This document shows positions 5,854 to 41,669 of a DNA stretch of 41,669 bases, piece by piece. How positions within the stretch are numbered: position 1 is the stretch's first letter; every line of letters begins with the position of its first letter. Made by a program: the position numbers and the translations under genes. The stretch spans positions 1-41,669 of the IMG/VR virus record IMGVR_UViG_3300010885_042165. One strand, written 5' to 3'. Source of the stretch: a virus. The notes below the pieces were generated by a model that was not told where the DNA came from, did not search any database, and was given only the letters and a program-made list of their open reading frames with translations.

Positions 5854-6855
5854 ATGCCGATTCCGTACATGGGCAGTAAAGCCAAAATCGCTGAAAATTT
5901 AATGAATGAAATAACGCTTAACAACCCACAAGCAGATACGTTTATTGACCTCTTTGGAGGCGGTGGCGCAATGAGCGAGGAAGCGTTACGCAGAATGCAA
6001 TTTAAGCGCGTGATTTACAATGAATTAAATGCAGGCGTGGCCAACCTTATGCGAAAAATACAGGTAGATGGAATAACGCCAGAATTTTATGAATGGGTGA
6101 GCCGTGACGAATTTCAAGAAATTAAAAACGGCGATTGTTGGAGGGCTGGATTGATTAAAACCTGTTGGAGCTTTGGCAATAATCAGAAGTGTTATTTATA
6201 TGGTAAAGATGTAGAATATTACAAAAAAGCGTACCATGATTTAGTTGTGAGTGGCCTTGATACGCGTGATTTTATGCAAAATTATGCGCAAGAGTATGTG
6301 CTGAAAAAGCATGGCATAAATGAGCCTTGCATTATAAATATGCCAACCGCAAATAATATTCAACAAAGACGCTTGCAAGTACGGGGCGATTTAAATAAGT
6401 ATGAAAAATCTTGTAAACTAACTCAAATTAGGCTATTGCAACAATTGCAACACTTGAAAAACTTGGAAAGCTTGCAAAACTTGCAAAACTTGCAAAACTT
6501 GGAAAGCTTGGAACGCTTGCAAAGCTTGCAAAGCTTGCAAAGCTTAAACGTGCTTGAAACGTTCAATCAAAACGCTTTTGAGTTTGACTTAAGCATTTAT
6601 TATAAGGATAAAACTGTGATTTATCTTGACCCACCTTACGCAGGCACAAAGGAATATCAAGAGAAAATGCAGGCCAACATTGACCACTTTGCAAGCTTAG
6701 GATTTACTGTTTATTTAAGTGAATACAAAAACCCTAATCCTGACTTATGGCAAGAGGTTTTTAGTACTGAAAAACGCGATACAATGTCACAAAATAAAAG
6801 CAGGGTAAAAATAGAAAGATTGTTTAAAAATGTCATACGACCTAAAGTCAATTAA
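5854..6855 (+). CDS. Dam-type DNA adenine methyltransferase with an internal triplet-repeat insert
   Basis: The 333-residue protein is a D12-class N6-adenine methyltransferase. The N-terminus MPIPYMGSKAKIAENL fits the class, FIDLFGGGGAMSEE (about 31-44) is the SAM-binding motif, and DPPY at about 259-262 is the catalytic motif IV. Between them residues of about 195-231 form a run of L-Q/E-N/S triplets (for example LQNLQNLQNLESLERLQS) coded by 9-bp repeats. This is the zone where target recognition normally sits, so variation in repeat number could tune DNA contacts. It probably protects phage DNA from host restriction. It is the first gene after a terminator and overlaps the next methylase by 26 bp. 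Confidence 0.85.
   Translation: MPIPYMGSKAKIAENLMNEITLNNPQADTFIDLFGGGGAMSEEALRRMQFKRVIYNELNAGVANLMRKIQVDGITPEFYEWVSRDEFQEIKNGDCWRAGLIKTCWSFGNNQKCYLYGKDVEYYKKAYHDLVVSGLDTRDFMQNYAQEYVLKKHGINEPCIINMPTANNIQQRRLQVRGDLNKYEKSCKLTQIRLLQQLQHLKNLESLQNLQNLQNLESLERLQSLQSLQSLNVLETFNQNAFEFDLSIYYKDKTVIYLDPPYAGTKEYQEKMQANIDHFASLGFTVYLSEYKNPNPDLWQEVFSTEKRDTMSQNKSRVKIERLFKNVIRPKVN
6436..6546 (+). repeat. 9-bp tandem repeat inside the Dam gene
   Basis: Units such as TTGCAAAAC, TTGGAAAGC and TTGCAAAGC follow each other about twelve times in frame. Gains or losses of a unit keep the frame and only change the length of the Leu-rich insert. Interleaving of the AAC and AGC versions suggests repeated duplication. 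Confidence 0.85.
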
Positions 6856-7741
6856 AAAGCAATTTGCAGAAAAAGGCGTTTTTTACACGCCATTAGAATT
6901 GGCAAATAAGCTTAAAAATTTGGCTGGAATAAATAATATAATAAGCGTTTATGACCCAACCTGTGGCCGTGGTGGTTTGCTAAGCGTATTTAATGATTGT
7001 GTAAAAAAGTACGGCGTTGAAATTGACCAGAACGCAGTTAATGATTGTAGCTACTTAAAAAATTCAAATATTAAACATGGTGACACTTTAGAGCTTGACC
7101 ATTTTGAAGGGTTAAGCTTTGATTTAGTAATAGCAAACCCGCCTTTTTCAGTAAAATATGACCCAGAAAAATTTATAAATTACACGGAATGTCCAACTGT
7201 ACCCAGCAAATCAAGAGCGGATTATGCGTTTATTTTGCATTGCCTTGATAAAATATCAAGCGATGGCGTGGCCGTGGTTTTGAATGCAATGGGCGTTACT
7301 TACCGCTTAGGACGTGAGGGAGAAATTAGACAATGGCTATTACAAAACAATAAAATAGAAAAAGTTGTTTACTTTGATGGAAACACTTTCGTAGATACAA
7401 AAATACCAACCGTTGCTTTTGTTATGCGTAAGAATCGCAATTCAAATAACGTTACTTTTTTATGCGATAAAACAAATAAATCAAAAAATATTACACTTAA
7501 AGAAATACAAAGCAATGATTACAATTTGAGTAAAAATTTATACTTACCAGATGATATTATTGAAAAAGAAAAAATAGACCCATTCCAGCTTGAAATAGAT
7601 ATTCAAGACAAGATAATAAAAGCACTTGATGCACAAATAAAAATAACAAAAACGATTGTTGATAATTTTGGCTTAGATAAAAAACATTTGAAAGATTTTT
7701 TAAATAAAATTCAACAGGTTGTAGATAAATATAAGGAGTGA
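6830..7741 (+). CDS. N6-adenine DNA methylase (HsdM/type I-like)
   Basis: The 303-residue protein has KGVFYTPLELANKL near the start (typical of N6 methylases), motif I DPTCGRGGLL (residues of about 42-51), and motif IV NPPF with a following SRADYAFILHCL. These place it in the HsdM-like gamma class. It lacks the long N-terminal helical domain of complete HsdM subunits and no specificity subunit is adjacent, so it may be a stand-alone modification enzyme. A predicted helical tail (IIKALDAQIKITKTIVDNF) could be for pairing. It overlaps the Dam gene by 26 bp and is followed by terminase after 3 bp. Confidence 0.8.
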   Translation: MSYDLKSIKKQFAEKGVFYTPLELANKLKNLAGINNIISVYDPTCGRGGLLSVFNDCVKKYGVEIDQNAVNDCSYLKNSNIKHGDTLELDHFEGLSFDLVIANPPFSVKYDPEKFINYTECPTVPSKSRADYAFILHCLDKISSDGVAVVLNAMGVTYRLGREGEIRQWLLQNNKIEKVVYFDGNTFVDTKIPTVAFVMRKNRNSNNVTFLCDKTNKSKNITLKEIQSNDYNLSKNLYLPDDIIEKEKIDPFQLEIDIQDKIIKALDAQIKITKTIVDNFGLDKKHLKDFLNKIQQVVDKYKE

Positions 7742-34386: not shown

Positions 34387-34406
34387 TTTAAATCCCCTTA
34401 AAAATT

Positions 34407-34481
34407 TAAGTACTGCTTAATCAATAAAAGGATTATATACAAGTATAGTATACTTGTCAACACTTTTTTCATTCAATCGTA
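34407..34481 (-). repeat. 75-bp promoter-operator repeat, copy 1
   Basis: This 75-bp stretch is identical to 34926-35000. It holds the promoter at 34432-34460 and its palindrome. With the conserved leader that follows each copy (differing at about three bases), the duplicated control cassette is about 100 bp long. Confidence 0.95.
34432..34460 (-). promoter_or_regulatory. Leftward promoter with a perfect 19-bp operator
   Basis: TTGACA (34460-34455), 17-bp spacer, TATAAT (34437-34432): both boxes are perfect. The spacer holds ACAAGTATAGTATACTTGT (34439-34457), a perfect dyad of 9-base arms around one base that overlaps the -35 box. A repressor bound there would block the polymerase. It drives the gene at 34386 and the helicase and methyltransferase behind it. 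Confidence 0.88.
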
Positions 34482-34483
34482 TT

Positions 34484-34906
34484 TTAAGCAAACTCCCCCC
34501 AAAATTCAGATTCAACCCACGCGCGATATTGGGCATTTGCGCTTAAAAGTTCCTTCATTTTAGCCATCAAAATCCAACCTTTGGCTTGGCCATTAACAAT
34601 TTGTGACTTTGGCAACCATACTGTCTTAACCAAAGATTGGGCTGAGTTTGCCATCCAAACATCAAAAGCAACGGCTTTTTCTGTTTCTTTTGTCGGAGCT
34701 GGTAGCCTGAAAAACGCATTTTTTACGTCAGAAACTTCTTTGTGATCTGCTTGTTTATCTTTCAACCAAGCCCAAGCTTTTTTAAGACCGGCAGAAATAT
34801 AATCAACTGCTTTGCCGCCTTTGCCTGATTTTTTGCGAGTACCAAAAGCAATATCACCAGCGATTTTCCAAGCTAAAGTCATAACTGTTTTTTTCGCGTT
34901 TTTCAT
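34484..34906 (-). CDS. Hypothetical early protein
   Basis: The 140-residue protein (MKNAKKTVMTLAWKIAGDIAF) has a basic Gly-Lys stretch (GTRKKSGKGGKAVDYI), then a helical region (LKKAWAWLKDKQADHKE) and a tail rich in Trp and Ala (YRAWVESEFWGEFA). The basic start suggests nucleic-acid binding. I recognise no family. It has its own operator-bearing promoter (34951-34979) and the AAGGGGATTTAAA leader. Confidence 0.6.
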   Translation of the reverse strand: MKNAKKTVMTLAWKIAGDIAFGTRKKSGKGGKAVDYISAGLKKAWAWLKDKQADHKEVSDVKNAFFRLPAPTKETEKAVAFDVWMANSAQSLVKTVWLPKSQIVNGQAKGWILMAKMKELLSANAQYRAWVESEFWGEFA

Positions 34907-34925
34907 TTTAAATCCCCTTAAAGTG

Positions 34926-35000
34926 TAAGTACTGCTTAATCAATAAAAGGATTATATACAAGTATAGTATACTTGTCAACACTTTTTTCATTCAATCGTA
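34926..35000 (-). repeat. 75-bp promoter-operator repeat, copy 2
   Basis: Identical to 34407-34481. The lack of any difference points to recent duplication or strong selection, in a phage that also encodes Bet-type annealing and an exonuclease. Confidence 0.95.
34951..34979 (-). promoter_or_regulatory. Leftward promoter with a perfect 19-bp operator (second copy)
   Basis: TTGACA (34979-34974) and TATAAT (34956-34951) with a 17-bp spacer containing ACAAGTATAGTATACTTGT (34958-34976), as at 34432-34460. It drives the gene at 34906. Confidence 0.88.
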
Positions 35001-36756: not shown

Positions 36757-37488
36757 TCAAAAATCAAGATTAGGTAAGTCTCTAACAATTTTCATTGTTT
36801 CTAAGCTTACCGTTACAATTCTATGCAACAAAGAAAGTGGATACCTTGGATCTCCTACCGTTTCATTTGCCCAATCATTTGCATCATTAACAATACCGCT
36901 GTCTTTGTGAGTAGTCACGCTTTGACGCTCCATAACCCATTCAATAGCCGATTTTCCATTTACTACATAATCGTAAGCTTCTATAGGAATTCCTGATAAT
37001 GTTATGTATTCGTTATAAATGATTGTTGTTCTATCATTTTTTATACCCAAAGATTTTTGATGATCATTTGCTTTGCCAAACTTCATTTTTTCAACACGAT
37101 AAAGTTGTTTTTTATTTAAGCAACATCCAGTCATATTTTGCTTTAAATCATACTCTTTAACGTTTTCATAAGCGACATGAAGCTCCGCTAAATATCGACC
37201 AGCTAAACTAAACCTCCAAAAATCATATAAACTTTTAACCCTCGGTATGCGCGGCAATTCTTTGGTCAGATTGTCGGCAAAGCGCGTTTTGTAGTCTTCA
37301 CTTTGTAATAGGCCGTAAATGTAATAAAACAAATCTTCTTTGCTTATTTCACGGTACATATTTGTATTTTCAAAAACTTTATTTTTATAAAAATCAACAA
37401 AATGGGCAAGCCCAGCATCCGTTATCCCATCTTTTTTTACTGGCTTATCAGTTCCATCTTCATCAGAAAATAAATCTTGCATTATCAT
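36757..37488 (-). CDS. Orphan C-terminal domain of a Type ISP restriction-modification enzyme
   Basis: The 243-residue protein matches the C-terminal (Type_ISP_C) part of single-chain Type ISP enzymes such as LlaGI: ITDAGLAHFVDFYKNKV, KEDLFYYIYGLLQSEDYKTRFADNLTKELPRIPRVKS, FWRFSLAGRYLAELHVAYENV, the block YNEYITLSGIPIEAYDYVVNGKSAIEWVME, SGIVNDANDWA and the end VSLETMKIVRDLP. These blocks are recalled from known proteins; no search was run. The nuclease, helicase and methylase parts are missing: the gene is only the last 240 residues. The piece just upstream (37485-37667) continues the same protein in another frame. It could be a decoy, a recognition subunit for a phage methylase, or a relic. 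Confidence 0.7.
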   Translation of the reverse strand: MIMQDLFSDEDGTDKPVKKDGITDAGLAHFVDFYKNKVFENTNMYREISKEDLFYYIYGLLQSEDYKTRFADNLTKELPRIPRVKSLYDFWRFSLAGRYLAELHVAYENVKEYDLKQNMTGCCLNKKQLYRVEKMKFGKANDHQKSLGIKNDRTTIIYNEYITLSGIPIEAYDYVVNGKSAIEWVMERQSVTTHKDSGIVNDANDWANETVGDPRYPLSLLHRIVTVSLETMKIVRDLPNLDF

Positions 37489-37667
37489 TCTTTGTCCAAT
37501 TCTTGGTTAATATCGTATAAAAACAAAGGGAAACATTGACTATCGCCGTTAAAATGCAAATCTGGCAAACAATTCGCCATCAAAACAGAAAAATCTCCTT
37601 TTTTGCAATTAACTGTAATGACTAAGTTTCCGTACTCACCTACTCGGTCTTCTAGTTTATTTTTCAT
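37485..37667 (-). CDS. Adjoining Type ISP fragment, separate frame
   Basis: The 60-residue protein (MKNKLEDRVGEYGNLVITVNCKKGDFSVLMANCLPDLHF and then GDSQCFPLFLYD) matches the stretch that precedes the C-terminal domain in Type ISP enzymes, where a block ending QCFPL-Y is usual. Its stop overlaps the next start (ATGA at 37485-37488), so the two frames are contiguous with respect to the parent protein. Either one indel split a fragment or two coupled proteins are made. Start at 37667 follows AGAG. Confidence 0.6.
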   Translation of the reverse strand: MKNKLEDRVGEYGNLVITVNCKKGDFSVLMANCLPDLHFNGDSQCFPLFLYDINQELDKE

Positions 37668-37671
37668 AGCT

Positions 37672-37980
37672 CTAACTAAAAATCATTTTTTGAAGTTGTT
37701 TTTTTTCGGAGTTGGTTGGCGTTTTTACCGTGTATTTATTGCCATTTATTTGATAAATAAGCCCTCCTTTTTGAATTTGGACAATTGATTTATTAATAAT
37801 TTCTTTGTAAAGATCCATGCTGATACCATATCTTTCCGTAATTATTTTATTGATTTCAATATCCAAAAGTTCGTTTTCGTTGTAGGAAACTTCACCTTTT
37901 TCAAGATAAATTTTCTCACTAAGTAATTCAATATCGATACCCTCGACTATTGACACTAAAGATTGAAAATCAACCAACAT
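37672..37980 (-). CDS. Hypothetical protein upstream of the Type ISP pieces
   Basis: The ATG at 37980 has AAGGGG eight bases upstream; a GTG at 37989 is in frame but too close to that site. The 102-residue protein (MLVDFQSLVSIVEGIDIELLSEKIYLEKGEV) is acidic, with a central helix (ELLDIEINKIITERYGISMDLYKEIINKS) and a beta end (GLIYQINGNKYTVKTPT). It is followed after 4 bases by the first Type ISP piece, so the three form one unit. No family recognised. Confidence 0.55.
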   Translation of the reverse strand: MLVDFQSLVSIVEGIDIELLSEKIYLEKGEVSYNENELLDIEINKIITERYGISMDLYKEIINKSIVQIQKGGLIYQINGNKYTVKTPTNSEKKQLQKMIFS

Positions 37981-38001
37981 AAAAAACACCCCTTCAAGTT
38001 G

Positions 38002-38033
38002 CGGCCAACCTTTTTAGATTGGCCGTTTTTTTT
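38002..38033 (+). terminator. Plus-strand terminator with GGCCAACC stem inside the leftward block
   Basis: CGGCCAACCT (38002-38011) pairs with AGATTGGCCG (38016-38025) with one mismatch and a 4-base loop, followed by eight T. It works for rightward transcription only, although all genes here run left. It would stop antisense transcripts. The stem is built from the dispersed octamer. Confidence 0.8.
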
Positions 38034-41387: not shown

Positions 41388-41639
41388 TTAATATAAAACT
41401 ACCGCGCTAATGGCATCATCAAGGTCATCTTCACCAGTCCAATCTCCATTCTGCTCTATTTTTGGATATCGATAATTTTGAGAAAAACCCTCTGGGGTTT
41501 CTGCTTTGAAAACATCCTCGACTTCTGCTCCAATAAGTTCATATATCCACCCCCCACAATTATCACAACAAGCTTTAATAATAACCTCGGCGTCCCCATC
41601 CCTACAACGAAGTTGCTCGATTAAATCTTTAACTTTCAT
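41388..41639 (-). CDS. Small early protein, complete copy
   Basis: The ATG at 41639 with AAGGAG upstream gives 83 residues: MKVKDLIEQLRCRDGDAEVIIKACCDNCGGWIYELIGAEVEDV and an acidic end (GEDDLDDAISAVVLY). The MKVKDLIE-L...DAEV start is common in small phage proteins of unknown role. CCDNC may bind metal. It is the first leftward gene, behind the promoter at 140-167, and its first 20 bases recur in the remnant at 4746. The frame continues to the window end without a better start. Confidence 0.65.
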   Translation of the reverse strand: MKVKDLIEQLRCRDGDAEVIIKACCDNCGGWIYELIGAEVEDVFKAETPEGFSQNYRYPKIEQNGDWTGEDDLDDAISAVVLY

Positions 41640-41669
41640 CCAAATCTCCTTAAAAGTTACGACTGCCAA
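41547..41669. repeat. Terminal direct repeat, right copy
   Basis: Identical to 1-123. Joining the two gives a circle of 41,546 bp in which the gene at 41388-41639 and the promoter at 140-167 become adjacent. Confidence 0.95.

Follow-up and report, generated by a model that had tools for sequence, protein, structure and literature searches.

Type ISP restriction enzymes carry a nuclease, an SF2 helicase, a coupler, a gamma-class methylase and a target-recognition domain (TRD) on a single polypeptide chain. In the structurally characterized enzymes LlaGI and LlaBIII (PDB 5FFJ and 4XQK), the TRD is composed of a core, a 'jaw' and a 'guide'; the bases of the target are read by Loops I–III of the methylase together with Loops IV, V and VI of the TRD, and the guide steers the DNA with no role in target recognition (PMC4872093). 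In Helicobacter pylori, a Type ISP system divided among several reading frames has been described (HP0667–HP0669), in which HP0669, containing the methylase and specificity regions, is active without the remainder (PMC3936762). On the phage side, lactococcal 936-type phages have acquired one part of the restriction-modification repertoire, namely methylases, and are protected against restriction (PMC4190342).

The locus described here is found in a phage genome (IMG/VR record IMGVR_UViG_3300010885_042165), which was analyzed over its whole length as a single window of 41,669 nucleotides. The window carries a 123 basepair direct terminal repeat (positions 1–123 and 41547–41669), and its ends are bridged by a second assembly (L003) at 99.8–100% identity, indicating a complete, circularly permuted genome of 41,546 bp. 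Two short genes on the minus strand together occupy positions 36757–37667, as a first-pass annotation had proposed. ORF60 (37485–37667; 60 residues, ATG start) encodes a beta-hairpin/omega loop and Loop VI, corresponding to about residues 1334–1374 of LlaBIII, and ORF243 (36757–37488; 243 residues, ATG start) encodes free-standing core helices and the guide subdomain (LlaBIII about 1395–1575). The stop codon of ORF60 and the start codon of ORF243 overlap in a shared ATGA (37485–37488, minus strand), an arrangement that, judged from sequence, points to translational coupling; coupling is preferred over programmed frameshifting because the overlap contains no slippery heptamer. The identical two-frame split is present in L003, which rules out a local assembly error.

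Both ORFs match the Pfam Type_ISP_C family (PF18135) above its curated cut-off of 25.9 bits, ORF243 with an E-value of 7.4e-57 (193.4 bits; profile positions 162–341 of 342) and ORF60 with an E-value of 2.3e-07 (30.7 bits; positions 110–157). With such scores the match is not due to chance. The family is covered only in part by the pair, positions 1–109 being missing. Among relatives of solved structure, phmmer searches returned LlaGI (1e-33), LlaBIII (4e-31) and DrdV (3e-24) and no others. The same three proteins were recovered by Foldseek, with no further match below an E-value of 1, using an AlphaFold (AF2) model of ORF243 (pLDDT 91, pTM 0.85) whose predicted fold is the same as that of the corresponding region of LlaGI and LlaBIII. 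ORF60 searched alone against the PDB gave no match, and a search of BFVD yielded no free-standing structural relative, its sole match being an 821-residue methylase. A phage protein family of unknown function, PHROG 4840 (279 residues), spans both ORFs end to end (ORF60 at 9–60 and ORF243 at 69–278), the window differing in having two coupled genes. Among bacterial proteins, the PHROG 4840 profile matches best at the ends of Type ISP enzymes of full length from Moraxellaceae, and the family may therefore consist of enzyme C-termini and not true orphans.

For mapping the pair onto the published structures, a full-length relative was aligned to LlaBIII; the alignment reproduces the published residues D1318, Y1321 and N1360, and LlaBIII numbering is thus usable. 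ORF60, the homolog of the hairpin/Loop VI strip, has a histidine where LlaGI has H1368 and LlaBIII has N1360, and its assignment is also backed by alignment to the free-standing and split-locus modules described below. In ORF243, the homolog of the core helices and guide, the LlaGI guide residues that contact the DNA backbone align with lysine (K1473), lysine (R1508) and alanine (K1479). The same ORF keeps 61 of 62 near-invariant columns, defined as alignment columns conserved in at least 90% of 82 relatives. Unlike LlaGI and LlaBIII, the pair is phage-encoded and is divided between two chains. From the TRD it retains Loop VI, the final core helices and the guide, whereas a complete TRD also has the jaw and Loops IV and V; the coupler, methylase, helicase and nuclease are likewise missing. 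A scan of the entire 41.5-kb record found no further Type ISP_C piece, and the helicase and methylases that the phage does encode are stand-alone genes of types other than Type ISP. The pair is ordinary in its homology and unusual in its form, being neither a Type ISP enzyme nor a complete TRD, and a Loop VI strip with a guide would not be expected to read a site by itself.

The first-pass annotation had described a C-terminal Type ISP region with intact frames and well-kept key blocks, from which the nuclease, helicase and methylase domains are absent. Each of these points was borne out, with a strong profile match obtained where that annotation had allowed for none, and with no other Type ISP part detected genome-wide. 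Its view that the frames cover the last part of an enzyme also stands; its extension of that view to the whole target-recognition region does not, since Loop VI is the only one of the three base-reading TRD loops that is present.

A genome scan recovered 64 Type ISP loci, most of them single ORFs of about 1,650 residues. In four Neisseria loci (L069, L072, L076 and L082), the breaks in the enzyme fall precisely where the phage parts begin and end. Altogether we identified nine distinct loci split at a repeat tract, six from Neisseriaceae and three from Moraxellaceae (one of the latter in an Acinetobacter genome); the tracts are located at positions 7506 (L069), 4579 (L072), 7633 (L076), 6948 (L082), 1227 (L101), 1450 (L105), 7739 (L037), 1406 (L188) and 1013–1144 on the minus strand (L216). 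In these loci a large ORF crosses its own hairpin/Loop VI and then enters a tetra- or pentanucleotide tract that separates the methylase-TRD part from the guide. Past the tract, one frame leads directly into the guide and another leads into a second hairpin/Loop VI module, which ends near a separately startable guide ORF at ATGA- or TAATG-type junctions; four of the loci have a third hairpin/Loop VI module, reached through the remaining frame. The arrangement resembles a switch in which repeat length selects among two or three versions of one specificity module; the frames are read directly, and from them we infer slippage and switching.

ORF60 and ORF243 match the two units of these loci, including a methionine positioned shortly ahead of the 'DLF' motif of the guide, and share with the exchangeable Loop VI and guide units the same boundaries, their own starts and coupled overlaps. 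The part set carried by the phage is a match to units that appear to be exchangeable in some host loci. The closest precedent for the split loci is the Type I system NgoAV (PMC9577141), in which HsdS is split or fused by a poly-G tract; it differs from the phage pair in its type, in the domain involved, in its location on a host chromosome and in the absence of phage parts. The Helicobacter locus differs from the pair in retaining its methylase; its frameshifts are not repeat-borne, and its methylase and specificity domains stay together. No description of repeat-tract split Type ISP loci was found in the literature searched, which was mostly that readable without subscription.

Orphan Type ISP parts were also found in other phages. 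An 18-kb prophage record (L129) contains a coupled row consisting of a 237-residue guide, a 64-residue hairpin/Loop VI module and a 160-residue methylase fragment in which motif I is present and NPPY is missing (module and fragment at 6687–7363). In three records of 39–52 kb corresponding to Acinetobacter-type prophages (L157, L158 and L159), a 73-residue Loop VI module is ATGA-coupled to a 161-residue methylase fragment (5923–6623 in L157 and 5929–6632 in L158), and no guide is present anywhere in the two records of this lineage that were scanned. The 161-residue fragment shares 54% identity with its L129 counterpart and has the identical end point, before the catalytic NPPY; that it stops there in both lineages argues against a role in methylation. 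Between L157 and L158 the fragment has accumulated 19 synonymous and 8 nonsynonymous changes (pS 0.18, pN 0.02), indicating that the Acinetobacter-type fragment is under purifying selection. The combination of module and fragment is common to the Acinetobacter-type prophages and to a high-GC prophage (L129). Across the three lineages, the window included, the order and combination of parts differ, with overlaps of 1–4 nucleotides in the two other lineages. Orphan arrangements are rare, with the scan of 2.9 million viral contigs yielding three lineages. The module and fragment pair was present in 1 of 149 Acinetobacter genomes, and the orphan methylase fragment was found in none of 385 genomes of one alphaproteobacterial class.

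The genomic setting of the pair was examined in three short sister-phage contigs (L027–L029), in which the adjacent 165-residue gene is 61–62% identical to that of the window and another gene is 84–86% identical. The first-pass annotation had raised the prospect of relatives with a full-length gene at this site; the sister phages instead have no Type ISP piece beside the 165-residue gene, and none was present in the two of the three records that were scanned whole. The DUF3310 gene is also absent from the sister contigs, and the empty site is therefore approximate. GC content falls to 31–35% at 36.8–38.0 kb, as compared to a genome value of about 41%. GC3 is 0.26 for ORF243, 0.33 for ORF60 and 0.28 for the neighboring ORF105, versus 0.32–0.50 for the other phage genes tested, with the exception of an N6-methylase (0.26). 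The absence from sister phages and the AT-rich composition of the cassette together indicate an acquired accessory. ORF105 (37672–37989, minus strand) is a small gene of unknown function whose 3' end lies 4 nucleotides ahead of ORF60; its true start is likely the ATG at 37980, behind an SD-like GAAGGGG, and with its similarly low GC content it probably belongs to the cassette. It displayed no kinship with the orphan methylase fragment or with any family. An inverted repeat (CGGCCAA...TTGGCCG, 38002–38025) is located in the gap between the DUF3310 gene and ORF105, just before the cassette's ribosome-binding site. Elsewhere in the genome, a pair of 95 basepair direct repeats (34387–34481 and 34906–35000; 93% identical) flanks a Gp111-like gene; the two copies probably represent a promoter region that has been duplicated ahead of each of two early genes.

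The terminase large subunit (TerL) of the phage is 51% identical to that of a Psychrobacter phage, 54–55% identical to those of Moraxellaceae prophages and 35–39% identical to those of Neisseriaceae, a kinship that fits with, and does not prove, a host from a family in which split Type ISP loci occur. In a phylogenetic tree, the guide of ORF243 forms a lone long branch (0.64, versus a median of 0.27) near a Myxococcota-rich clade with low support; in this poorly supported position it does not appear to be akin to the split enzymes of Neisseria and Moraxellaceae. A megablast search of 11.7 kb against phages gave no match, and no diverged close copy of the window's cassette was found.

The explanation that we favor, while falling somewhat short of an even chance, is action in trans, in which the parts would target Type ISP enzymes of the host, either as poisons or through an exchange of specificity. 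The parts would be expected to dock at the sites occupied by the enzyme's own copies and some host loci encode the guide separately, which together favor such action in trans. It is also favored by the agreement of the phage boundaries with the units of the split loci, by the recurrence of orphan parts in two other prophage lineages, one of whose methylase fragments is under purifying selection, by the conservation and confident predicted fold of the guide, and by the TerL kinship; the rarity of the orphan arrangement and the lone long branch of the window's guide count against it. In this scheme two coupled polypeptides, ORF60 with its hairpin/Loop VI strip and ORF243 with its core-helix/guide block, would together supply an exchangeable Type ISP C-terminal part. 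These would dock on the host enzyme, where the host guide, a separate chain in some repeat-tract states, could be displaced or replaced by its phage counterpart. Restriction might then be poisoned by subunit mimicry, or the Loop VI-dependent specificity might be altered so that the host enzyme stops attacking the phage. We hold more tentatively to a broader form of the idea, in which free-standing, recombinable Type ISP parts of phages (Loop VI module, guide and the methylase fragment without its catalytic motif) would join in trans with enzymes of the host that are themselves made from separate, repeat-switched pieces, and would poison or retarget them as a form of anti-restriction by subunit exchange.

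Ranked next below action in trans, and in our judgment somewhat unlikely, is that the pair is a functionless relic: the 3'-terminal portion of a Type ISP locus gained by illegitimate recombination, with frames still open since its acquisition was recent. An accessory insertion that is missing from sister phages, with GC and GC3 values below those of the phage backbone that suggest a foreign origin, would fit such a history, and remnants of truncated Type ISP genes are frequent at other loci (L061, L093, L094, L095, L149 and L153). A relic would be less expected to display two tidy start codons, an ATGA coupling, an SD-like start on the upstream gene and 61 of 62 conserved positions, or to have its parts recur, recombined and re-coupled, in other prophages, where one of them is under purifying selection. 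The same anatomy that underlies action in trans could also serve as a weapon against superinfection, with the parts activating or re-aiming a resident Type ISP enzyme against competing phages, and swapping the Loop VI module should indeed change the base read at position +3 (H1368/N1360; PMC4872093). We consider this reading quite improbable, given that the cassette lies among replication and recombination genes and not lysogeny genes and that no integrase or repressor was recognized in the ORF list.

Two further possibilities had been raised by the first-pass annotation. One is that the pair serves as a target-binding partner for a phage methyltransferase, here considered as an HsdS-like specificity partner for an HsdM-like N6-adenine methylase (6830–7741, plus strand; PF02384, E-value 1.1e-39), a gene that directly follows a Dam-like D12 methylase. 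That enzyme has no TRD of its own and shares with the cassette an unusually low GC3 (0.257 versus 0.258). It is encoded in a different operon, however, and is HsdM-like (NPPF) and not Type ISP-like; moreover, with Loops IV and V and the bulk of the TRD core missing, the pair is not expected to read a site alone, and no N6_Mtase like that of the window was found in any of the four other records with orphan parts, one of which is an 18-kb fragment. We therefore regard such a partnership as disfavored and improbable. The other possibility is that of a decoy, for which an action directed at the host enzyme is retained in our favored explanation. A decoy on the DNA side, in which free pieces would bind and shield Type ISP sites on phage DNA, might draw on the retained Loop VI and the two retained backbone-contacting positions of the guide. 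Loops I–III, IV and V and the jaw are missing, however, and the guide does not read the target (PMC4872093), so that sequence-specific binding by the pair alone is not expected and a simple DNA decoy is very unlikely.

If the parts do act in trans, they would represent a counter-defense against single-chain, ATP-dependent restriction enzymes that operates by subunit exchange and not by DNA mimicry, and the Type ISP recognition lobe would be modular at the border between Loop VI and the guide. The window's parts differ from the genes described for the 936-type phages in having no catalytic domain. The border between Loop VI and the guide would be the cut point for engineering Type ISP specificity, and the split loci of Neisseria and Moraxellaceae offer a natural test bed. 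If the pair is instead a relic, the phage gene is ordinary.

Several additional candidates were considered as free-standing parts and set aside. The only tblastn matches of ORF243 in 50,697 phage records were two unannotated 'Listeria phage' contigs; in one of these (OR848216) the match is not an orphan, corresponding to a LlaGI-like ORF of full length that has a transposase-like gene on either side. A lax search added just two weak hits, neither of them Type ISP. Short Type ISP ORFs in L043, L059, L060, L061, L136, L137, L141 and L215 mostly reflected frameshifts, contig ends or insertion-interrupted genes. In L061 (3911–8711), a verrucomicrobial Type ISP gene is interrupted by a C5-methylase-like gene and a second gene, which look like an inserted restriction-modification cassette. 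A free guide-like ORF of 223 residues in a Lactobacillus MAG (L091) has an unrelated N-terminus and may be a relic. Apart from these candidates, four viral contigs (L014, L018, L023 and L148) encode a Type ISP protein of ∼900 residues that comprises the methylase and TRD without nuclease or helicase, and these proteins are possibly phage self-protection methylases.
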